30,996 nt of DNA, taken from contig PATE01000028.1 in assembly GCA_002712305.1 (NCBI GenBank), positions 11,159 through 42,154 on the forward strand, given 5' to 3'. Each line of letters begins with the position of its first letter. Within the stretch, counting starts at the first letter, position 1. This DNA is from Gemmatimonadota bacterium. Its GTDB lineage: Bacteria > Latescibacterota > UBA2968 > UBA8231. A model generated the notes under the pieces. That model did not search any database. It had not been told where the DNA came from and saw nothing but the letters and a program-made list of their open reading frames with translations. A program made the translations under genes and the position numbers. Of this stretch, positions 1-17,010 are shown one piece after another.

Positions 1-63
1 ACTCAGGGCATCATCGTCGGGCGAGGCGAGCGCATCGTCATCGGATCTGGGGGAATCGCTCAC
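1..63 (-). CDS. N-terminus of an unidentified protein, cut by the window edge
   Basis: A reading frame opens with GTG at 63-61, overlapping the TGA stop of the upstream GINT1-like gene in a GTGA arrangement, and stays open to the window edge. Only about 21 residues are visible. They are very acidic and contain a near-duplicate (DDDALAS followed by P and DDDALS). No function can be assigned. The overlap with the preceding gene matches the spacing elsewhere in this operon, which is the main reason to believe it is a real start. Confidence 0.45.
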   Translation of the reverse strand, partial: MSDSPRSDDDALASPDDDALS

Positions 64-1568
64 GGCCATCGGCGTCGATCACGATGCAGGTCGATGACCC
101 GTATCCACCGATCGGTGTTCAGCGTATGAAGTCGGTTGGCCCCAAAGGACCCCGGCTCAAGGCGCAGCAGGGGGCGCTCGCGAAATCGGCTCGTCGTCAA
201 CTCGGTCACCTCAAAGATCGTCAGTGCGCGGCCGTAACGATGACTGCAGTCCTGGGCGGGGCGGCACAACCTCTGACCCCAGAAGAACAAGCCACCCGCC
301 GGGCGCGCCCGACCGGGATCCGAGACCACAGGGTTGGCTGGGTGAGGTGTCCACGGTCCGAGAGGACTGTCACAGTAGAAGATATGGAGTTCATCATGAA
401 CAGATGTTTCTGGTTGTCCAAGATTGGTCCACATCCACCATCGATCGCCAATCTGCTCAACGGTTACGTCCACGGCATGCACCTGCTCCATCGCCACCGT
501 CTCTAACTCCCACTGCAGCGGATCGCCATTTTGCTGTCGATACACCTCAACCGTGCGATTCGATGAGGTCTCTGGAATCATGAAACGTTCACCGGACCAG
601 TTGAAGACATGCGGATGAGATAGGTGACCGTCGGTTTCAAGGCAGGTACCGAGGTGCTTGAAGCCGCCGTCCCGATTCACTTCCAGCACCGCAATCTGCC
701 CTCGCCCGACGGGGTCTTTCCACTCTTCCAGATAGATGTGGGCAATGTCATCGGAGATCACCACGGGGAAGGGGTCGGCCCAGAATCGATCACCTGGGGG
801 GTGCACGAAATGCAGGTCATCGGCATGCAGTTCAGGTGAGGCGGGCGGCTCAAACTGCACACCCAAGTACCATCCGTTCTTCCTCAAGGTGCGGCGGAGT
901 GCCGTGCGCAGTGCACGTACAGGGCGCCTGTGCTGTGCGACCGCCAGCGATGGCAGGTCGGGTTCGTTGGCGGGTAGATCGTCAGCGATCAGATCTCGCA
1001 ATCCGCGAACCGGCAGGTGTGACGCCCGCCACAGCAGACGCTGACGCGTGATCGCCGGAGAAAGGGTGTGGACCCGAACTCGGCTGGGTCGAAGGATCCG
1101 ATCTCCGCCGATCTGACGCAGACATACCGTCTCGGTGCCCAACCCGTCGATGGTGGCGCCACGACCCAGGTCGGCAGGCAGTTGGAGGTCCCAGATTCCC
1201 CATCGTGGAGAGGGGGGGACCGGTAGATTGTCCTGCTGGACATTGAGCGAGCCATCGATGTCGACACCGAGGCAGAAGACGATGTCCACCGCGTCCGGGG
1301 TTGGCCAAGGGGCTTGGCTGGCCTGCACGGGGAGGTCGACCGGTCGCTTCGCTTCGGCATTCGGGCCCGTGATCATCCGGCGATCAAGGGGGTCGAGGAT
1401 TCCCTTCCATGGGACGCGACGGGCACGCCGATGATGCAGGCTGACGATGTCGGAGCACTCTGCCAGCTTTTCCACCGCCGACACAATCCAGGCAGCAGGA
1501 TCGGTGTCAGGGAGCAAGACCCCGACACGAGGTCTGGTCTGGCCCGTCGTCGCCTCCAGGGTATTCAT
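60..1568 (-). CDS. GINT1-like protein: formyltransferase-like N-terminus plus beta-propeller
   Basis: A protein of about 502 aa. The N-terminal half (from RPRVGVLLPD) resembles the formyltransferase-like domain of bacterial proteins that carry a glucosamine inositolphosphorylceramide transferase 1 N-terminal domain, including the 'LDRRMITGPN...VDL' stretch. The C-terminal half (about residue 230 on) is that GH43-like propeller, with GDRFWADPFP, HLSHPHVF, RFMIPETSSN, HAVDVTV and SRPAGG-like blade motifs. The ATG at 1568 is chosen because GGAG lies about 8 nt upstream and similarity starts just after; an earlier ATG at 1697 would run into the sulfotransferase gene. The propeller probably recognises or modifies a glycan or glycolipid, but no bacterial activity is firmly known to me. 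It is the penultimate visible gene of the left operon. Confidence 0.7.
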   Translation of the reverse strand: MNTLEATTGQTRPRVGVLLPDTDPAAWIVSAVEKLAECSDIVSLHHRRARRVPWKGILDPLDRRMITGPNAEAKRPVDLPVQASQAPWPTPDAVDIVFCLGVDIDGSLNVQQDNLPVPPSPRWGIWDLQLPADLGRGATIDGLGTETVCLRQIGGDRILRPSRVRVHTLSPAITRQRLLWRASHLPVRGLRDLIADDLPANEPDLPSLAVAQHRRPVRALRTALRRTLRKNGWYLGVQFEPPASPELHADDLHFVHPPGDRFWADPFPVVISDDIAHIYLEEWKDPVGRGQIAVLEVNRDGGFKHLGTCLETDGHLSHPHVFNWSGERFMIPETSSNRTVEVYRQQNGDPLQWELETVAMEQVHAVDVTVEQIGDRWWMWTNLGQPETSVHDELHIFYCDSPLGPWTPHPANPVVSDPGRARPAGGLFFWGQRLCRPAQDCSHRYGRALTIFEVTELTTSRFRERPLLRLEPGSFGANRLHTLNTDRWIRVIDLHRDRRRWP

Positions 1569-1599
1569 CCCACGGCTCCAGCGAATCTCGCCTGAATCA

Positions 1600-2454
1600 T
1601 CAGGCCGGCTCGTAGCCAAATTGCTCAAGGGTGGGGCCGGCCTCGGCCCGGATGGTATCGACCTCGTCAGGGAGGAGGCGGGCGATCGACTCGGCATTCA
1701 TGTTGCGAATCGGAGACGCGACGCCGTGCACGTGGAATGTGTCCGACGTGGTTTCAGTACCCAGGGGAGGCAGTTGCAGGAATCCGGTGATCTCATTCAA
1801 GACATGGGCTGGACGATCCGTCAGCTCTTCGTAGGTCACCTGAAGGAATCGGTCCAGACCTGGTCGGTCGCCAGAGACCACCTCGTGGCTGACACGCCAC
1901 TGTTCTGCGCATAGATCGATGGGATAGCGGTCGCCGAACTCCTCGCGGCCATGCCGGCGAGGCTCGGTCTTGCGGCGGATTCCCTCGGCCACGGCATAAC
2001 CATTGCGCACCAGATAAATGAAGGACGCAGGCGCAAAGGCAGCCTGCAGGAAGGGGAGTCGAGTTGTGTTGGCAATGGACTTCTCCAACACACATTCCGC
2101 GGATGGGGGCAGGGCGAGAGACCACTGTCGACGAATCCGCTCGCTGAGGACGGGGGTGTTCTCGTCGACGGGAATCTGCATCTCGTCCCGGCAGCGAGAC
2201 CACATACGCTGCCAGCCGAAGGTCTCGGGCCGGGGGAGAGAATCGGTGAGACGAACGCCCTCCGAGGGCAACGAGCTGATCTGCGGATGTCGCCCCAGCA
2301 GATCGCGCAACAGGGTCGTTCCTGAGTTGTAACATCCGACGATGAAGATCCAACGATCCGGGGTAATCGCCGTCGCCCAGCGGCCACTCAGCCCCTGTAC
2401 CCAACGCTTCTTCAGCAGGCCCTTGTGAGCACGCTGCAACAAGGATGGGCTCAT
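1600..2454 (-). CDS. PAPS-dependent sulfotransferase family protein
   Basis: A protein of 284 aa. A 5'-phosphosulfate binding loop (IVGCYNSGTTLLRDLLG, about residues 38-53) and a 3'-phosphate motif (YLVRNGYAVAEGIRR, about 146-160) mark it as a sulfotransferase using 3'-phosphoadenylyl sulfate. It has no signal peptide, so it acts in the cytoplasm or at the inner membrane face. The ATG overlaps the stop of the GT4 glycosyltransferase gene (ATGA, 2451-2454), pointing to translational coupling. Placement between a glycosyltransferase and the GINT1-like protein suggests sulfation of a glycan or glycolipid; the acceptor is not visible from sequence. Confidence 0.85.
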   Translation of the reverse strand: MSPSLLQRAHKGLLKKRWVQGLSGRWATAITPDRWIFIVGCYNSGTTLLRDLLGRHPQISSLPSEGVRLTDSLPRPETFGWQRMWSRCRDEMQIPVDENTPVLSERIRRQWSLALPPSAECVLEKSIANTTRLPFLQAAFAPASFIYLVRNGYAVAEGIRRKTEPRRHGREEFGDRYPIDLCAEQWRVSHEVVSGDRPGLDRFLQVTYEELTDRPAHVLNEITGFLQLPPLGTETTSDTFHVHGVASPIRNMNAESIARLLPDEVDTIRAEAGPTLEQFGYEPA

Positions 2455-3662
2455 CCGGGCACCGCCGCTGGCTGCACATCAGCCACCGTGTCTTTGCCGG
2501 CGACGACTCTCTGCACCATCTCAAAACTCGCTTGCCCGAGAGATTCGATCGAGAAGTGATCCTCAACATGAGAGTGGGCCTGGGTTCCGAGTTGCTGGCG
2601 CAGTTCAGCGTCGGCGAGGAGTCGATCGAGAGCCTCGGCCAGGGCGTGCTGGTCGTCTGGAGGTACCAGGAGCCCCGTCTTCCCGTCGACTACGACCTCA
2701 GGCGTTCCACCATCATCGCAGCCGATGGCGGGCAGGCCAAAGGCCCCCGCCTCGATAAACACATTGCCCAGTCCCTCTCGGACACTGGGCAGGGCGAAGA
2801 TGCCGGCTCTCTCATACTGCTCGTACAACGCCGCCGAACGGGGCTCGATCGAGCCGACGAAGTCCACGTGCTCGTCGATGTGCAACTCAAAGGTCATTCT
2901 CTCGAGTCGATCCCTCTGCGGGCCTTCTCCAACCACGATGAGCCGTGCGGCGTCGTGACGCTGTCTCACCAGGGCCATGGCCCGCAGCAAGACATCGATC
3001 CGCTTCTGTCGCTGCAGTCGGGCGACGGTGAGGATCGTCGTCGGCGAACGCACAGCCTGCGCTCTCGCAGATGCGCTCTTCCTCAGATCGAAGGCCGGCG
3101 GGCTGACGAACAGTCGCTGGGCAGAAAGCCCCTTGGCGACGGCTACATCACACAATGCGCGACTGACGACGGCGATCGCGCTGGAGCGTGCATAACATCG
3201 TCGATGGAAAACGCTCTCCAGCCAACGGGCCGGGGTCCGGCCGGGGAGCCGCGAGGAAATATCGGTGCCGCGCACGCAGGATATCGTCGGCCATCGCGGT
3301 GCACCCAGTTTGGACACCAGACCCGCCACGCGGGTGCCCATGCCATTGGTCGTCCACAGGCAGTGGGGTTGAAAGCGAGCGATCTCCTGTACCAGTGCGG
3401 CACGACAGCGGACATAACGACGCACCGCTGAAGTGGTATAGGGGATCCACTGCACATCGATGTCGTCGTCTGTGACGGTCTGCGGAATGGCCACGTCGGA
3501 GGGCAAGGGCGCGGGACCGGTCAGCGACGGGGGAGCCTGCGTTAGCACCCGGACCTGAGCCCCCGATGCAGACAACCCGGTGGCAAGAGCATGGGTGTAG
3601 CTGGCCGTGCCCGCCGCAGAAGGGGGAAACTGCGTGCCGAAAAGCAAAACACGGAGACTCAC
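2451..3662 (-). CDS. GT4-family glycosyltransferase
   Basis: A protein of 403 aa with the GT-B layout. The N-terminal domain begins with LLFGTQFPPSAAGTASYTHA, as in GT4 enzymes that approach the acceptor with a flexible glycine/proline loop. The C-terminal domain has ILTVARLQRQKRIDVLLRA, VVGEGPQRDRLE and the EX7E donor-binding motif (EGLGNVFIE), followed by GGTPEVV and TGLLVPP. It should transfer a hexose or related sugar from a nucleotide sugar with retention. The start is GTG at 3662, overlapping the stop of the CDP-alcohol phosphotransferase gene (GTGA). No transmembrane segment is evident. Donor and acceptor are unknown. Confidence 0.88.
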   Translation of the reverse strand: MSLRVLLFGTQFPPSAAGTASYTHALATGLSASGAQVRVLTQAPPSLTGPAPLPSDVAIPQTVTDDDIDVQWIPYTTSAVRRYVRCRAALVQEIARFQPHCLWTTNGMGTRVAGLVSKLGAPRWPTISCVRGTDISSRLPGRTPARWLESVFHRRCYARSSAIAVVSRALCDVAVAKGLSAQRLFVSPPAFDLRKSASARAQAVRSPTTILTVARLQRQKRIDVLLRAMALVRQRHDAARLIVVGEGPQRDRLERMTFELHIDEHVDFVGSIEPRSAALYEQYERAGIFALPSVREGLGNVFIEAGAFGLPAIGCDDGGTPEVVVDGKTGLLVPPDDQHALAEALDRLLADAELRQQLGTQAHSHVEDHFSIESLGQASFEMVQRVVAGKDTVADVQPAAVPG

Positions 3663-4942
3663 GCCTCGGCTCTCCCGCGCACACCACCGGTCAGGTCTTC
3701 GCGCACACCGCCTGTCAGGCCGATCCAGGCAAATCGTAAGACGTGGATGGCGAGGGTCAGCACCATACCTGCCGCCATCGCGACAAAAGCGGACTCGACA
3801 AGGCCAGCGGCGACACCGATGGTGAGCACGAGCAGGTGCATGTTCCGTCGCACGGCGAACAGGTGGAAGAAGGCATCGAAGGGCCGTGCATCAAATAACT
3901 CCCGGCCAAATCGTCGGCGAAACTCACCCGACACCACCTTGTCGACGAGGAAACAAGCCACCGTCGTCCAACAGCTGAGCATCGCAACCGAGGGTGTCCA
4001 CAGATCGCCGTCCGTCAGATGCCAACCGATAGCGACAAACCACAGGCCGAGCCCGGGCATGGCTGACAGGTGTTCGATGGTCCCCATCGCATCCGACAGA
4101 TTCAGCGTCAGGCGTGCCAGTTTTCCGTCGATCGAGTCGAGCAGGACTCCCGCCCAGGCGCTGACACACCCCAACGCCACATGCCCTGTTGCGAAACAGG
4201 GGATGGCAAGCCAGATCCCGGCGATGGACAAGACGGTGAACAGATTCGGGCTCAGCGTCGTGCGACTCAGACAGCGTGTCAGAAGACGAACGAGGTGGTA
4301 GTAGCCATAACGCGCGATGGCGTCGATGACCCCCTTGAAGGTGCGTCGGTACAGCAGATGATCGACGTGGCGTAGCTGTGATCGTTCGGTAAGGCGGATC
4401 ATGAAGGCGGGCATGGTCAGGCGCAGTTCGGGGACATAGGTGTCCAGCTGCTCCACCGTCGTTGAGTTCAGTCCCTGCGCCAGTTGCCGCACACCGACGA
4501 ACTGCGCTGACGACTTCTCCAGCACGGCATGCCAATGCTGTGCAGAAAGCCAAACCAGGGTGGTCTCCGTCGCTGTCACGCAGTGGTCGGGTCCTGCCGC
4601 CAACAGATGATGCCAAAGGCGGTCGTCGTGAACGACATCACCATCGGCGACCAACAGCCCGCCTTCCAGGTCGGGCATGACGTCTGCTAACTGCTCTGCG
4701 CTCTGCACGACATCGATCTGCAGGGGGTGGATATCACGAAGATCTGGGCGCCAACGGTGTAGCTCCCATTCGACGTCGGATCCGACGTACACCACGACGT
4801 ATTCGATTCCACACAGCGAGGCCTGACGAAGTACCCGCTCGGCGATACTCATTCCCCACAGAGGCAGGTTCGATGCAGGACGGCTGCTGTCCACGAGCAG
4901 CACCCTTGGTGTTGCAGAGGATCGCAAGGCTGCTTCAGTCAC
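3659..4942 (-). CDS. Nucleotidyltransferase-like / CDP-alcohol phosphotransferase fusion with incomplete signature
   Basis: A protein of 427 aa. Residues 1 to about 200 resemble a sugar-nucleotidyltransferase fold (RVLLVDSS..., LLVADGDVVHDD, NSTTVEQLDTYVPE) but lack the glycine-rich GxGTRxxP nucleotide loop. Residues about 228-420 are a membrane-embedded CDP-alcohol phosphotransferase domain with several hydrophobic helices. Its signature starts correctly (D269 S I D272 G K L A R277), but the expected G-x3-D-x3-D is replaced by a stretch reading MGTIEHLSA, so the third and fourth metal/catalytic aspartates are not found. The layout recalls the inositol-phosphate cytidylyltransferase/phosphotransferase fusion. 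The GTG start overlaps the methyltransferase gene by 8 nt. It may be a variant or inactive enzyme of phospholipid headgroup synthesis. Confidence 0.78.
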   Translation of the reverse strand: MTEAALRSSATPRVLLVDSSRPASNLPLWGMSIAERVLRQASLCGIEYVVVYVGSDVEWELHRWRPDLRDIHPLQIDVVQSAEQLADVMPDLEGGLLVADGDVVHDDRLWHHLLAAGPDHCVTATETTLVWLSAQHWHAVLEKSSAQFVGVRQLAQGLNSTTVEQLDTYVPELRLTMPAFMIRLTERSQLRHVDHLLYRRTFKGVIDAIARYGYYHLVRLLTRCLSRTTLSPNLFTVLSIAGIWLAIPCFATGHVALGCVSAWAGVLLDSIDGKLARLTLNLSDAMGTIEHLSAMPGLGLWFVAIGWHLTDGDLWTPSVAMLSCWTTVACFLVDKVVSGEFRRRFGRELFDARPFDAFFHLFAVRRNMHLLVLTIGVAAGLVESAFVAMAAGMVLTLAIHVLRFAWIGLTGGVREDLTGGVRGRAEA

Positions 4943-5450
4943 CGGCGGGTTGTCGTCGCGATTTTCTAGAGACGCCGTCGTGGCCGCGCCACGGCTGACA
5001 GAGATTCGCGAAGTGTTTGAGCGACGCGCTCTTGATCACGATCGCCTCGGGTCGAAGAACGGTGGCATACATGGTGAGCAGAGATATCGTGTCGAGCAGC
5101 GATCGATAGCCGGACAGGCCAGACATGTCGATATAGATCTTGCTGAATCGCTCGATGTCGAGTTCGCTGGCAAGGTCTGCCGCGGCGCGCACATCAAAGG
5201 CGTCCAGGACGGCGAACTCGCACTCGGGGTGCTCGCGCCGGGCCCGGTCGATACAGTCGGCACTGACATCGGTACCGACGACACGTGAACAGGCGGGGGC
5301 AATCTGTACCGTCGTCGTCCCCCATTCGCACCCGATCTCCAGGACGGTATCGAGCTCGGAGACCCACGTCCCGATCGTCTGTCGGTATTCGTGAACATCG
5401 CGTGTACCGATGAATTTCGTCTTCAGCTTGAACTGCTGGTTGTTGGGCAA
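4935..5450 (-). CDS. Class I SAM-dependent methyltransferase
   Basis: A protein of 171 aa with a Rossmann-type SAM-binding motif (TVLEIGCEWGTTTVQIA, about residues 35-51), an acidic residue ending strand 2 (VVGTDVSADCIDRAR) and a strand-4 region with IYIDMSGLSG. The start used is TTG at 5450, preceded by a purine-rich GAGAG about 8 nt upstream and 15 nt after the stop of the DUF1961 gene; no ATG lies nearby in frame. The basic C-terminal tail overlaps the next gene by 8 nt. The substrate is unknown. Its position in the operon suggests modification of the product made by the neighbouring transferases, or a shared regulatory unit only. Confidence 0.75.
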   Translation of the reverse strand: MPNNQQFKLKTKFIGTRDVHEYRQTIGTWVSELDTVLEIGCEWGTTTVQIAPACSRVVGTDVSADCIDRARREHPECEFAVLDAFDVRAAADLASELDIERFSKIYIDMSGLSGYRSLLDTISLLTMYATVLRPEAIVIKSASLKHFANLCQPWRGHDGVSRKSRRQPAGD

Positions 5451-5465
5451 TTGTGGTGGCTCTCT

Positions 5466-6152
5466 TCAGGACAGCGGTTCGATGGCTTCGATACGAAGAT
5501 TCGCATATTCCGCGATCAGCGGCGCCATCTGTCGAAAACCGATCCGGCCCCCGGTGAGAATCGGGCCAAACTCGGTTTCAGGATCCTTCCACGAAAACAC
5601 GGTCAGATCCCGAATCTCAAAGTGCACGTGGGGACCCGATTTGACCAATGTCATGGCATAGGGTTCGTGAACATCGGCGATACCCGGCAGGGGGTCGGCG
5701 CCCTGCGCCACGAGATGGAACCCGTGACTCTTGCGCAGATTGCAGCGCTGGAAGGCACGTTCCGTGGGCGCCTTGCGCCGGAAGTAGGAGACGTGCAGCG
5801 CGTCGAGATCCCCGTGATGATACTGTTCGTAGGGTCCACTTCGCGGCTGCAGGGTCGGGTCGCAGAGGTCCTTTCCTCCATGTCCCACGGCAGAGAAAAA
5901 CAGAATCGCCAGACCCGGTTCGCGAATCGGTCGAAAGTCCCAGGTGATACGAACATGATCGGGAAAATTCTCGGGGCACCAGAATACGATGTTTGCCGCT
6001 TGGCCCTGCCCCGGATCGATCAGGTGATCGAGTCGCAGACAGCCCATGGGAAAACTGGGCACACCAGAACCCTCGAGGATGAAATCTTCAACCGAGGCCG
6101 GCCCATCCAGAGGATTCTCGTAGAGGGTTTCGCGAACCACGATATCGAACAC
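5466..6152 (-). CDS. DUF1961 family protein
   Basis: About 228 aa. The body (VRETLYENPLDGP, ITWDFRPIREPGLAILFF, GDLDALHVSYFRRK, GFRQMAPLIAEYANLRI) matches what I recall of DUF1961, predicted concanavalin-like beta-sandwich proteins often found near sulfatases and oxidoreductases in Planctomycetes and FCB bacteria. I chose GTG at 6152 because AAGGA lies 9 nt upstream and the family similarity starts there; the longer frame overlaps the 4-TM gene in another frame. It has no signal peptide in this form. It may bind or act on a carbohydrate; no activity is established. Confidence 0.8.
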   Translation of the reverse strand: MFDIVVRETLYENPLDGPASVEDFILEGSGVPSFPMGCLRLDHLIDPGQGQAANIVFWCPENFPDHVRITWDFRPIREPGLAILFFSAVGHGGKDLCDPTLQPRSGPYEQYHHGDLDALHVSYFRRKAPTERAFQRCNLRKSHGFHLVAQGADPLPGIADVHEPYAMTLVKSGPHVHFEIRDLTVFSWKDPETEFGPILTGGRIGFRQMAPLIAEYANLRIEAIEPLS

Positions 6153-6157
6153 GGTCT

Positions 6158-6490
6158 TCAGTCCTTGAAAACGCTCAGCACAAGGGATGTAACGGAAACG
6201 ACCAGACCGCCGAGGAAGGCTGCGGCGAAGGTGTCGATGACCAGACCCGCTGTGAACCACGCCGCCAATCCGAGCATGGCCGCATTGACGACAAGGGTGA
6301 ACAAGCCGAGCGTCAACAACAGCATCGGTAGGGAGAGAAGCAGAACGATCGGTTTGATCACCGCATTCACGAGTCCGAATACGAGGGCCACGATGGCGAC
6401 CTCAATGGGGTTTTCGGACAAATGCATCCCATCCACCAACCACGCGGCAAACCACAGCGCAAAAGCATTGATGAGAAGTTTGATCAGCAT
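6158..6490 (-). CDS. Small 4-TM membrane protein, phage-holin superfamily IV (YvlD-like)
   Basis: About 110 aa and almost entirely hydrophobic, with four predicted membrane helices (LLINAFALWFAAWLVDGM; VAIVALVFGLVNAVIKP; LLLSLPMLLLTLGLFTLVVNA; AFLGGLVVSVTSLVLSVF). The pattern FGLVNAVIKPIV...TLGLFTLVVNAAML is characteristic of the 'mycobacterial 4 TMS phage holin' family, which is mostly chromosomal and unrelated to lysis. ATG at 6490 is chosen over an upstream codon because GGGAGG lies 8 nt before it. It is the first gene of the left operon and diverges from the toroid gene. Function is unknown. Confidence 0.85.
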   Translation of the reverse strand: MLIKLLINAFALWFAAWLVDGMHLSENPIEVAIVALVFGLVNAVIKPIVLLLSLPMLLLTLGLFTLVVNAAMLGLAAWFTAGLVIDTFAAAFLGGLVVSVTSLVLSVFKD

Positions 6491-6504
6491 GTGGCGTCCC
6501 TCCC

Positions 6505-6625: not shown

Positions 6626-8281
6626 GTGACGACCCAGTGGGCCCCAGAACCCGAACTCCTGCAGCATCTAGACGAAGCGGTGACCATGATCCTGACGACG
6701 CAGAAGGAGAACGGTCAATTCGGCTCCGAGCCCTGGATCTCCACAGACCAGAACGTTCTGTGGCCATTAACGGTGGCCTGGTCCCAGTCCGGGTCCCGCC
6801 ACTTCCACGACGAACCCGTACTGGACGCCATTGTCCGCGGCGGCCTTGCCCTGCAGGAGGCGCAGGATGAAAACGGCATGTGGATGTTCCGCAAGAAGGA
6901 CTACTCCGAATGGGGACCCATTCGCATGCCCTGGGCCTACAGCCGATGGATACGTGCTTTTGCCGTGATCAAGGACCAGATGCCCACCGATGCTCATCAG
7001 AAGTGGGCCGACGGTCTGCAACTCGGCTATGAGGGCATTGCCGAGCACCAGCTTACGCACATTCATAACATTCCGACCCATCACGCAATGGCCCTGTATT
7101 GCGCGGGCCAGGTCTTCGACCGACCCACGTGGTGCGAGCAGGCGGCAGACTTCCTTCGCGGTGTTGCCAGCGCCCAGTCTCCCCACGGCTGGTGGGCGGA
7201 GCACGAGGGTCCCGTCGTGGCGTACAACTTCGTGTATGCCGAGGCACTCGGCACCTACTTCGCCATGTCGGGTGACGAACAGGTCCTGCCCGCTCTGGAA
7301 CGCGCGGCGACCTATCATGCGACGTTCACCTATCCCGATGGCAGTTGCGTAGAGACCATTGACGGTCGCAATCCCTATCATGACGGCGTCCGTCTCGGCA
7401 ACGCAGGGCTTACGCGTTCTGCAGCGGGTCGCGGATGGACGGCGCAGCAACACCGGCTCTATCTAGCTCAGGGACAACGATTCGACGCGGACTATGCCGC
7501 TTCGATGCTCGCCGACGCCACATCAGGAGACGCCGAGATACCACCCGGAGCGCGGGACGTCCACACGCAACGGATGGGTGATCAGGCGCTCACACGGCGC
7601 CGCGCCCCCTGGTTCGCCTGCGTATCCGCCTATACAGTGGACATCCCACAGAATCGCTGGGGACTGGATCGACAGAGTTTCTTCAGTCTGTATCACGACG
7701 AGGCAGGGTTGATCGCCGGTGGCGGCAACAGCAAGCTCCAACCCCTGTGGAGCACCTTCACCCTCGGCAACACCGAGTTGTTGAAGCACACACCGGGCGA
7801 AGAGGACCCGGACTTTGCCGCCGTGGACGGCCTGATCCACTGTCCCCAATCGGCCAAACTCGGAGAGGACGATGAGACGGTCCTCGTCGACCTCCATTAT
7901 GGATCAGCGTTATGCACGGTGAGTCTGAAACTCGACGCTGAGTCTGCCGTGGCCACCTTCAGCGCCGCGGGTGAGATCACAGCAACCCTCGCCGCCCATG
8001 TGACCCTGCTTCCGCAGATCGGTGAATCCCTCCAAATAGGTGAGCAGTCGTGGGTGCTCGGCGATGAGGTGATCGATATGACGTTCGCCACATCGACGAC
8101 GATCTCCCACGGACGCTGGCAGATGAGTTGTGGGCCGGGCAGTCGTTTTCACTGGCCCGCCCTGCCGCACAATCCGTATCGGAAAGACGGCCACTCGACA
8201 TCCGAGGAAGGTCGGCTTGTGGTGACGTTGCCCCTGGCGTCCGATGCACCTGCCTCAGTGGGATTCCATCTCGCCGAGTGA
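6626..8281 (+). CDS. Toroid plus beta-sandwich protein, polysaccharide-lyase-like
   Basis: A protein of 551 aa. The first about 330 residues show regularly spaced helical, Trp/Tyr/His-rich segments (QKENGQFG, LQEAQDENGMWMFR, MPWAYSRWIRAFAV, HNIPTHHAMALYCAG, FVYAEALGTYFAMSG), typical of alpha/alpha toroids. The remainder is beta-rich (SFFSLYHDEAGLIAGGG onward), as in heparinase II/III-type lyases. I do not recognise a specific family and see no certain catalytic set, though His, Tyr and Arg residues in the toroid are candidates. There is no signal peptide, so it would act inside the cell. The GTG start at 6626 has AAAGG about 11 nt upstream. It runs divergently from the left operon and converges on the rhodanese gene with only 5 bp between stops. 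Confidence 0.6.
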   Translation: MTTQWAPEPELLQHLDEAVTMILTTQKENGQFGSEPWISTDQNVLWPLTVAWSQSGSRHFHDEPVLDAIVRGGLALQEAQDENGMWMFRKKDYSEWGPIRMPWAYSRWIRAFAVIKDQMPTDAHQKWADGLQLGYEGIAEHQLTHIHNIPTHHAMALYCAGQVFDRPTWCEQAADFLRGVASAQSPHGWWAEHEGPVVAYNFVYAEALGTYFAMSGDEQVLPALERAATYHATFTYPDGSCVETIDGRNPYHDGVRLGNAGLTRSAAGRGWTAQQHRLYLAQGQRFDADYAASMLADATSGDAEIPPGARDVHTQRMGDQALTRRRAPWFACVSAYTVDIPQNRWGLDRQSFFSLYHDEAGLIAGGGNSKLQPLWSTFTLGNTELLKHTPGEEDPDFAAVDGLIHCPQSAKLGEDDETVLVDLHYGSALCTVSLKLDAESAVATFSAAGEITATLAAHVTLLPQIGESLQIGEQSWVLGDEVIDMTFATSTTISHGRWQMSCGPGSRFHWPALPHNPYRKDGHSTSEEGRLVVTLPLASDAPASVGFHLAE

Positions 8282-15544: not shown

Positions 15545-16909
15545 TCAGGTGTGCGTCACAGGACGCGTTTGATGGGCGTCGGGGACGAATTCTCGCTCCC
15601 AGCGCTCTTCGATCTGAGCCCGCCAACCTTCGGCCGCCTCCTTGAGCTGCTGCGTGAGTCGCGGGTCTTCCAGCTTGAGATTCACTCGTTCTCCCGGATC
15701 ATCGGTAAGGTTGGACAGATGGATCTCGTCGTCCGTAGGGGCGCCTTCTACCAGTTGTCCTCGCAGCACCAGTTTCCAGTCGTCGCGACGGATCGCCGTC
15801 TGTTTGTTCATCTCCCACATCAGATCACGGCTCGGCCCACGGTCACCCCCGGTCAGATAAGGGAGCAGTGATCGACCGTCGAGTTCATAGTCATCGACGT
15901 TGCCACCGGCAGCACTCAGCGCTGTCGCAAAGATATCCATCGACGCGCAGGGCGCATCGAGCACCTGCCCCGCATCGATGCCACCCGGCCAGTGACACAG
16001 GGCAGGCATACGAATTCCACCTTCGTACAGACTGAACTTGTGCCCCTTCAGCGCACCGGCGCTGCCTCCGTAGTATGGGTCCTGAGTGCCATCGAGCCAG
16101 TTTCGGGTCTCGCGCGAGGGTCCATTGTCGGAGGTGAAGAAACTCAACGTGTTCTGACGCTGTCCCAGTCGTTCCGCCTCAGCCAGAATCTCTCCGACGC
16201 TGTCGTCGACAGCACTGATCATGGCCGCCATGATGCGACGATCCCAGGGCAAGTCGTCAAAACGTTCGACATACTCCGCAGGCGCGTGCATCGGGTAGTG
16301 GGGCGCGTTGTAGGGAACGTAGAGGAAGAACGGCTGATCCTTCGCCACGGCATCTCTCATGTAGAGGATGGCCCGCTCCGTGATCATCTCGGTGAAATAC
16401 TGGCCATCGTCCCAGATCTCTTCGTCATCTTCCCACAGATCATGTGTCGGATTGAGGCCAGGCCCGGGATGATTCATCCCCCAGTAGAAAATGTGCGAAT
16501 AGTAGTCGATGCAGCCGGCAAGGAATCCAAACCAACGATCAAATCCGTGCGCGTGGGGACGCGAGCCTGGGGCCAGACCCAGGTGCCATTTACCAGACAT
16601 GCCGGTGGCGTAGCCTCGTTGTTGCAGGGCCGTCGCCAGCGTCGGAACGTGTGCCGGGAGTCCCGTGGCGGTTCGATGGCCCGCCAGGATCGACCTCACG
16701 CCGGCATTTCCCGGGTACCGGCCGGTGAGCAGTGCGGCTCGTGACGGGCTGCAGACGGGACTGTTGCTGTACCAGTCGGTAAACCGAACGCCCTCGCGGG
16801 CCATCTGATCGAGGTGAGGCGTACGGAAATCCGTGCATCCCATGCACGAGAGATCACCGTATCCCTGATCGTCGGTGAGAAAGACGATGATGTTTGGCGC
16901 GTTGGCCAA
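15545..16909 (-). CDS. Arylsulfatase-family sulfatase, apparently cytoplasmic
   Basis: About 454 aa of the formylglycine sulfatase family: NIIVFLTDDQGYGDLSCMG (metal-binding Asp pair), the signature CSPSRAALLTGRYP in which the cysteine would be converted to formylglycine, GKWHLG, FFTSDNGP and a C-terminal FLYVPYNAPHYPMHAPAEYV region. I place the start at TTG 16909, because AGGAAAGG sits 7 nt upstream (16917-16924) and the family begins here; a GTG at 16969 has no such site. Neither start gives a signal peptide, unusual for this family, so the substrate may be taken up before desulfation. It heads an operon with the zinc-ribbon, Gfo/Idh/MocA and GNAT genes. Confidence 0.9.
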   Translation of the reverse strand: MANAPNIIVFLTDDQGYGDLSCMGCTDFRTPHLDQMAREGVRFTDWYSNSPVCSPSRAALLTGRYPGNAGVRSILAGHRTATGLPAHVPTLATALQQRGYATGMSGKWHLGLAPGSRPHAHGFDRWFGFLAGCIDYYSHIFYWGMNHPGPGLNPTHDLWEDDEEIWDDGQYFTEMITERAILYMRDAVAKDQPFFLYVPYNAPHYPMHAPAEYVERFDDLPWDRRIMAAMISAVDDSVGEILAEAERLGQRQNTLSFFTSDNGPSRETRNWLDGTQDPYYGGSAGALKGHKFSLYEGGIRMPALCHWPGGIDAGQVLDAPCASMDIFATALSAAGGNVDDYELDGRSLLPYLTGGDRGPSRDLMWEMNKQTAIRRDDWKLVLRGQLVEGAPTDDEIHLSNLTDDPGERVNLKLEDPRLTQQLKEAAEGWRAQIEERWEREFVPDAHQTRPVTHT

Positions 16910-17010
16910 CGTGGTGCCTTTCCTCTGAGTGAGATAAGGGTAGACACGGGCCGGGTTGGCGACAAACACGGTTGACGATGGGATTCGACCCGGTTACGTT
17001 CGTTTTCCTA

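Follow-up and report, generated by a model that had tools for sequence, protein, structure and literature searches.

What outer-membrane bacteria without lipid A use instead is an open question in most lineages, and the gene cluster described here raises it for one class of the Latescibacterota. The cluster lies at positions 60-6152 of a stretch of 30,996 nucleotides (the window) from contig PATE01000028.1, which belongs to a metagenome-assembled genome (MAG) of 4.77 Mb, here called G000. Its core encodes a fusion protein with a cytidine diphosphate (CDP)-alcohol phosphotransferase (CDP-AP) domain, termed CDPAP, a GT4 glycosyltransferase, a sulfotransferase (ST), a protein with a GINT1_N domain and a flippase (FLIP). 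We put the chances at about even that this operon encodes a pathway by which a diderm without lipopolysaccharide (LPS) makes an anionic phosphoglycolipid, attaches sulfate to it and flips it. This reading is favoured because the gene order is conserved, ST always occurs with the same neighbours, some relatives carry as separate modules what others have joined, CDPAP and FLIP are ancestrally linked to the gene of a cytidylyltransferase (the nucleotidyltransferase NTase), CDPAP has the fold of AF2299 and IPCT-DIPPS, its homologues occur in lipid clusters, and a CysN-CysC fusion follows the distribution of the full operon. In addition, LpxC and LpxB are absent from the class, and Omp85 and a second CDP-AP protein, CDPAP2, are present.

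Conserved order of the core genes

The core consists of five genes:

1..69, minus strand: start of FLIP, a 539-aa Polysacc_synt_3/MATE-type flippase, which continues off the window (L002:9608-11227); identified by profile matches and by reading the contig beyond the window
60..1568, minus strand: GINT1_N protein, 502 aa, with a weakly formyltransferase-like N-terminal half and a GH43/GH117-like five-bladed propeller
1600..2454, minus strand: ST, a Sulfotransfer_3 sulfotransferase (E 1e-21) with the PAPS-loop motif GCYNSGTTLLRDLL, PAPS being 3'-phosphoadenosine 5'-phosphosulfate
2451..3662, minus strand: GT4 family glycosyltransferase (E 6e-41)
3659..4942, minus strand: CDPAP, a degenerate cytidylyltransferase-like domain fused to a CDP-AP domain

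The order CDPAP, GT4, ST, GINT1_N, FLIP is common to five genomes (G000, G001, G012, G009 and G005, in the last of which the contig end cuts inside CDPAP). Identity between the core genes of the window and those of the four further genomes is about 41-80% per gene. Since the order is kept in these four, the grouping is not due to chance. A sequence-only reading of the window had treated CDPAP, GT4, ST and the GINT1_N protein as one set, and the comparison bears this out: the neighbours do not differ at random among related genomes, and these four genes hold their order in all five. According to a profile search, an ST orthologue is present in 6 of the 64 genomes of the phylum, and in each it adjoins GT4 and a GINT1_N gene.

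Origin of CDPAP and FLIP

Strong orthologues of CDPAP were found by profile in 13 genomes of the window's family, and their surroundings vary. In genera g4 and g6 (L051-L055, L057), FLIP, a complete NTase and CDPAP are adjacent, without GT4, ST and GINT1_N. This group adjoins a divergent NTase2-CDPAP2-LPG_synthase_TM set, with OEP, DUF3047, MlaC and MMPL genes further along. G003 has NTase-CDPAP without FLIP at that place. In genera g1 and g5, NTase is retained at a conserved place, next to cytochrome c-like, UvrA-like and methionyl-tRNA synthetase genes (the place was not recovered in G009), but FLIP and CDPAP no longer stand there and are found in a window-type operon instead. The partner locus of G000, on contig C66 (L087:9260-19294), comprises NTase, NTase2, CDPAP2, LPG_synthase_TM, OEP, DUF3047, MlaC and MMPL. 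NTase thus stands on C66 in G000, and it adjoins CDPAP in G004, G006, G008, G011, G014, G017 and G003. G003 carries GT4-ST with the GINT1_N gene apart from NTase-CDPAP, and G015 has FLIP-GT4-CDPAP together, without ST and GINT1_N. That the modules are separate in some relatives and joined in others argues for a shared pathway. CDPAP and FLIP thus derive from a lipid-headgroup locus, at which NTase stayed behind in G000.

The order of this headgroup/export locus is partly kept in other families of the class. In G030, a complete genome from another family, and in G038, the MMPL, MlaC, CDPAP2 and OEP genes are again neighbours (L111, L114), and CDPAP2 has an intact nucleotidyltransferase loop in both. 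The nearest plasmid homologues of CDPAP, from Diaphorobacter and Roseomonas, stand in lipid clusters with genes for an acyl-AMP ligase, the diacylglycerol kinase family, LptF/G-type permeases and cytidylyltransferases. CDPAP and a CDP-AP protein of the Diaphorobacter locus share 27% identity over 402 aa.

Fold and altered active site of CDPAP

The description of CDPAP as a CDP-alcohol phosphotransferase fusion, made in the sequence-only reading, holds for the fold. At the level of sequence family, the Pfam match is below cut-off (E 0.0023), and the NCBIfam model for phosphatidylinositol phosphate (PIP) synthases, to which the CDP-AP domain is weakly closest, matches at 1e-7. The predicted model (mean predicted local distance difference test score, pLDDT, of 76.5) superimposes on AF2299 (PDB 4o6n) with Z 22.5 and a root-mean-square deviation of 4.3 over 322 aligned positions, and on IPCT-DIPPS (PDB 4mnd) with Z 20.8 and a Foldseek E of 4e-13, both domains being matched. 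CDPAP thus shares with these proteins the two-domain architecture of a cytidylyltransferase-like and a CDP-AP domain, the latter with its six transmembrane (TM) segments and with PNLFT at 232-236 as the TM1 motif P(D/N)xx(T/S). It differs from them in two respects. The nucleotidyltransferase loop that is active in IPCT (GxGxR and KP) is absent from CDPAP and its orthologues, in which the N-terminal domain is degenerate. Moreover, two catalytic aspartates of the CDP-AP signature D1xxD2GxxAR...GxxxD3xxxD4 are replaced:

4112..4138, minus strand: first half of the signature, DSIDGKLAR, with D1, D2, G, A and R intact
4061..4075, minus strand: second half of the signature, EHLSA, with Glu290 for D3 and Ala294 for D4

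All 11 orthologues in alignment A3 have these two residues, which, the spacing being ungapped, fall exactly on D3 and D4. Conservation of the altered motif together with its flanks (EHxxAMPGLGLW) is very strong and speaks against decay. The canonical signature is found in outgroups within the phylum (L058, L065, L066), in CDPAP2, including that of G000 itself, and in the homologues from Diaphorobacter and Roseomonas; in L059-L063, D3 is replaced by Glu and D4 is retained. As a separate observation, G011 has, next to an altered CDPAP, a second FLIP-NTase-CDPAP set (L065:1903-5869) with the canonical CDPAP motif.

D4 is the proposed catalytic base, and a D4N substitution nearly abolished the activity of a mycobacterial PIP synthase (PMC4634129). 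With D3 and D4 replaced, CDPAP would therefore be a subunit with a binding role or else an enzyme whose active site has been reworked. In the former case, which cuts across the other explanations discussed below, CDPAP would have lost its transferase activity and, as a subunit, would bind CDP or act as a scaffold, for example in company with the canonical CDPAP2 of the same genome, and GT4, ST and the GINT1_N protein would do the chemistry. The fixation of Glu and Ala in orthologues that otherwise keep D1, D2, G, A, R and PNxxT fits this explanation, as do the mycobacterial result and the intact motif of CDPAP2. However, the very strong conservation around the altered motif fits a reworked active site as well, and nothing points to a CDPAP-CDPAP2 complex. 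We consider a non-catalytic CDPAP a serious, though minority, possibility.

Sulfate donor

The PAPS loop of ST, GCYNSGTTLL, is invariant in the ST orthologues. A source of PAPS is encoded in the genome in the form of adenosine 5'-phosphosulfate (APS) kinase genes, including a CysN-CysC fusion (contig C7 of G000, L096; L097-L100). Among ten genomes tested, this second APS kinase is present in exactly the five with the full operon; G003, which has ST, is without the fusion. The window also encodes, at 15545-16969 on the minus strand, a protein that reads by inspection as sulfatase-like.

The GINT1_N protein and the plant-type pathway

In plant GINT1, GINT1_N is the N-terminal domain, and the catalytic part is the C-terminal GT64 domain. 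The window protein shares GINT1_N with it (Pfam, E 3e-38), and differs in the absence of GT64, GINT1_N being the only domain found by Pfam, and in its N-terminal half. The sequence-only reading had taken it for a GINT1-like formyltransferase/beta-propeller protein, of which the GINT1_N assignment stands. Formyltransferase catalysis by the N-terminal half was rejected, since Pfam gives no such match in the window protein and the sole match, in one distant relative, is at E 0.005, below cut-off. The GH117/GH43 propeller match may be taken as a hint at the level of the fold. The predicted model is of low confidence (mean pLDDT 57.5), and a sequence search of solved structures with the GINT1_N profile gave nothing useful. 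Two open reading frames make up the GINT1_N gene of G009 (L013:6771-8360), a split that is perhaps due to an assembly error.

The GINT1_N domain had also suggested inositol-phospho-sphingolipid glycosylation as in plants, and the weak proximity of the CDP-AP domain to PIP synthases would agree with this. A search with one serine palmitoyltransferase-like query (E 1e-10) found no match in G000, G012, G009, G005 and G006; the same query matches proteins in G015, G003, G004, G011 and G001 that could be other aminotransferases. GINT1_N proteins are furthermore encoded on plasmids of many proteobacteria and haloarchaea, and stand outside lipid clusters in the cases examined. In view of the missing GT64 domain and the lack of a match to the one serine palmitoyltransferase query in G000, a plant-type pathway was rejected as very improbable.

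An outer membrane without lipid A genes

None of the 47 genomes of the window's class, four single-contig genomes among them, has LpxC or LpxB. Of the 17 genomes of the phylum outside the class, 16 have LpxC and 2 have CDPAP2 (E at most 1e-30), against 47/47 class genomes with CDPAP2. These contrasts go back to a small number of evolutionary events and should not be read as independent counts. Omp85 is present throughout the phylum (64/64), and by inspection two long proteins encoded in the window read as TonB-dependent receptors. Among the papers accessible to our literature searches, none deals with the loss of LPS in this class; LPS genes were described in other Latescibacteria in 2015 (PMC4454575).

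Proposed pathway and alternatives

We propose that the cytidylyltransferase NTase, encoded on C66 in G000, activates a phospho-alcohol with cytidine triphosphate (CTP), and that CDPAP would handle the resulting CDP-alcohol and attach it to an acceptor that is a lipid or is linked to one. GT4 would add a sugar and ST a sulfate group from PAPS, and the GINT1_N propeller protein may tailor the glycan. Synthesis would take place on the cytoplasmic side of the inner membrane, from which FLIP would translocate the product outward; its onward transport to the outer membrane may be the task of the MlaC, MMPL and OEP proteins encoded in the C66 locus. A sulfated phosphoglycolipid, as suggested in the sequence-only reading, is still the best reading; its inositol-type variant has been dropped. 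That account did not include FLIP, the lipid-export genes and partner cytidylyltransferase encoded on a separate contig, the missing LpxC and LpxB or the altered active site of CDPAP.

Several points weigh against the phosphoglycolipid. The step order and the arrival of the product at the outer membrane are our inference, as is every substrate, including the identity of the lipid and of the headgroup. The Ala at D4 predicts a loss of classical CDP-AP catalysis, so that CDPAP may not catalyse the proposed reaction. MAGs make up most of the genomes compared, and few evolutionary events underlie the co-occurrences. Finally, the FLIP family also serves polysaccharides, and the two plasmid-borne GINT1_N proteins examined, from Caballeronia and Halorussus, are surrounded by exopolysaccharide-type genes.

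The last two points would suit a different product, namely a short exported surface glycan (an O-antigen- or capsule-like repeat) on a polyprenyl carrier, which ST would sulfate, FLIP would export as a Wzx protein, and CDPAP would decorate with a phospho-alcohol substituent. Eight of ten FLIP orthologues match Polysacc_synt_3 (best 2.7e-15), with further matches to MatE (a sequence search of solved structures with the flippase profile gave nothing useful), and GT4 is closest to exopolysaccharide enzymes, far below cut-off. However, the operon has a single glycosyltransferase, and none of its genes encodes an initiating phosphoglycosyltransferase or a Wzy polymerase, the hallmarks of Wzx/Wzy clusters, or a chain-length regulator. 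In the sister genera, moreover, CDPAP and FLIP accompany cytidylyltransferase and lipid-export genes, without GT4, ST and GINT1_N. A surface glycan therefore seems rather unlikely to us.

The phosphoglycolipid reading has its nearest characterised counterpart in Caulobacter. There, ceramide (di)phosphoglycerate, made by CpgA-D, supports survival without LPS; for the diphosphoglycerate form, CpgD makes CDP-glycerate, and the locus contains a CDP-AP protein, a potential flippase and LptF/G paralogues (PMC12275187, PMC11324152). Both systems pair a cytidylyltransferase with a CDP-AP protein for an anionic headgroup, with flippase and lipid-transport genes nearby. The Diaphorobacter and Roseomonas clusters resemble the Caulobacter locus in make-up. 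The window system differs in the additional GT4, ST and GINT1_N genes, in FLIP and MlaC/MMPL/OEP instead of LptF/G paralogues, and in a CDPAP without D4, and no ceramide gene was found in it with the one serine palmitoyltransferase query. Likened by gene make-up and not by comparison with Caulobacter sequences, it seems to resemble the cpg pathway in kind, and we do not assign it as a member.

Transport genes of the RND/MlaC type are also known for hopanoids (HpnN and HpnM). The C66 locus, which lies outside the window, similarly pairs MlaC, MMPL and LPG_synthase_TM families, and differs in its linkage to CDP-AP, nucleotidyltransferase, OEP and DUF3047 genes.

Accessory and neighbouring genes

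Upstream of CDPAP, the cluster continues with genes that are not shared by the relatives to the same extent:

4935..5450, minus strand: class I methyltransferase, accessory
5466..6152, minus strand: DUF1961 protein (E 3e-93), accessory
6158..6493, minus strand: PF04020 four-TM membrane protein, upstream neighbour

Among the loci examined, the DUF1961 and methyltransferase genes were found only in the window's genus, and the core is therefore limited to five genes, one of them off the window. The methyltransferase, correctly recognised in the sequence-only reading along with ST and GT4, is thus not a core part of the set in which it had been placed. As the genes that separate CDPAP from the upstream neighbours vary, the DUF1961 and PF04020 proteins were rejected as core parts as well. 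The PF04020 gene is also upstream of the cluster in G001, G012 and G009.

The tight minus-strand packing at 60-6152 and the families named for it are confirmed. The proposed count of eight genes is reached only with the PF04020 gene and the off-window FLIP, six being complete within these bounds (GINT1_N protein, ST, GT4, CDPAP, methyltransferase and DUF1961). Overlaps of 4-8 nt, said to be the rule, apply to three junctions (methyltransferase/CDPAP 8 nt, CDPAP/GT4 4 nt, GT4/ST 4 nt). GINT1_N and FLIP overlap by 10 nt, and gaps separate PF04020/DUF1961 (5 nt), DUF1961/methyltransferase (15 nt) and ST/GINT1_N (31 nt).

Divergent from the PF04020 gene, a gene at 6626-8281 on the plus strand encodes a protein of 551 aa that matches no Pfam or NCBIfam family above cut-off; it is kept beside the PF04020 gene in G001, G012 and G009.

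Implications

A broader proposal, which we advance tentatively and consider improbable as a whole, is that of a two-locus system, in which CDPAP2 and the MlaC/MMPL/OEP export genes across the class, together with the window operon in some genera, would make and export a phosphoglycolipid that replaces lipid A. Here, this lipid would be sulfated, and the catalytic aspartates of the CDP-AP protein would have given way to a conserved active site of a new kind. For enzymology, a direct question is posed by orthologues that are strongly conserved and yet have all lost the CDP-AP catalytic base. A defined gene set across an LPS-less class, to which some genera add sulfation, points to specific genes and to a lipid class that can be sought. 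The cluster could thus help to explain what outer-membrane cells without LPS use in place of lipid A.

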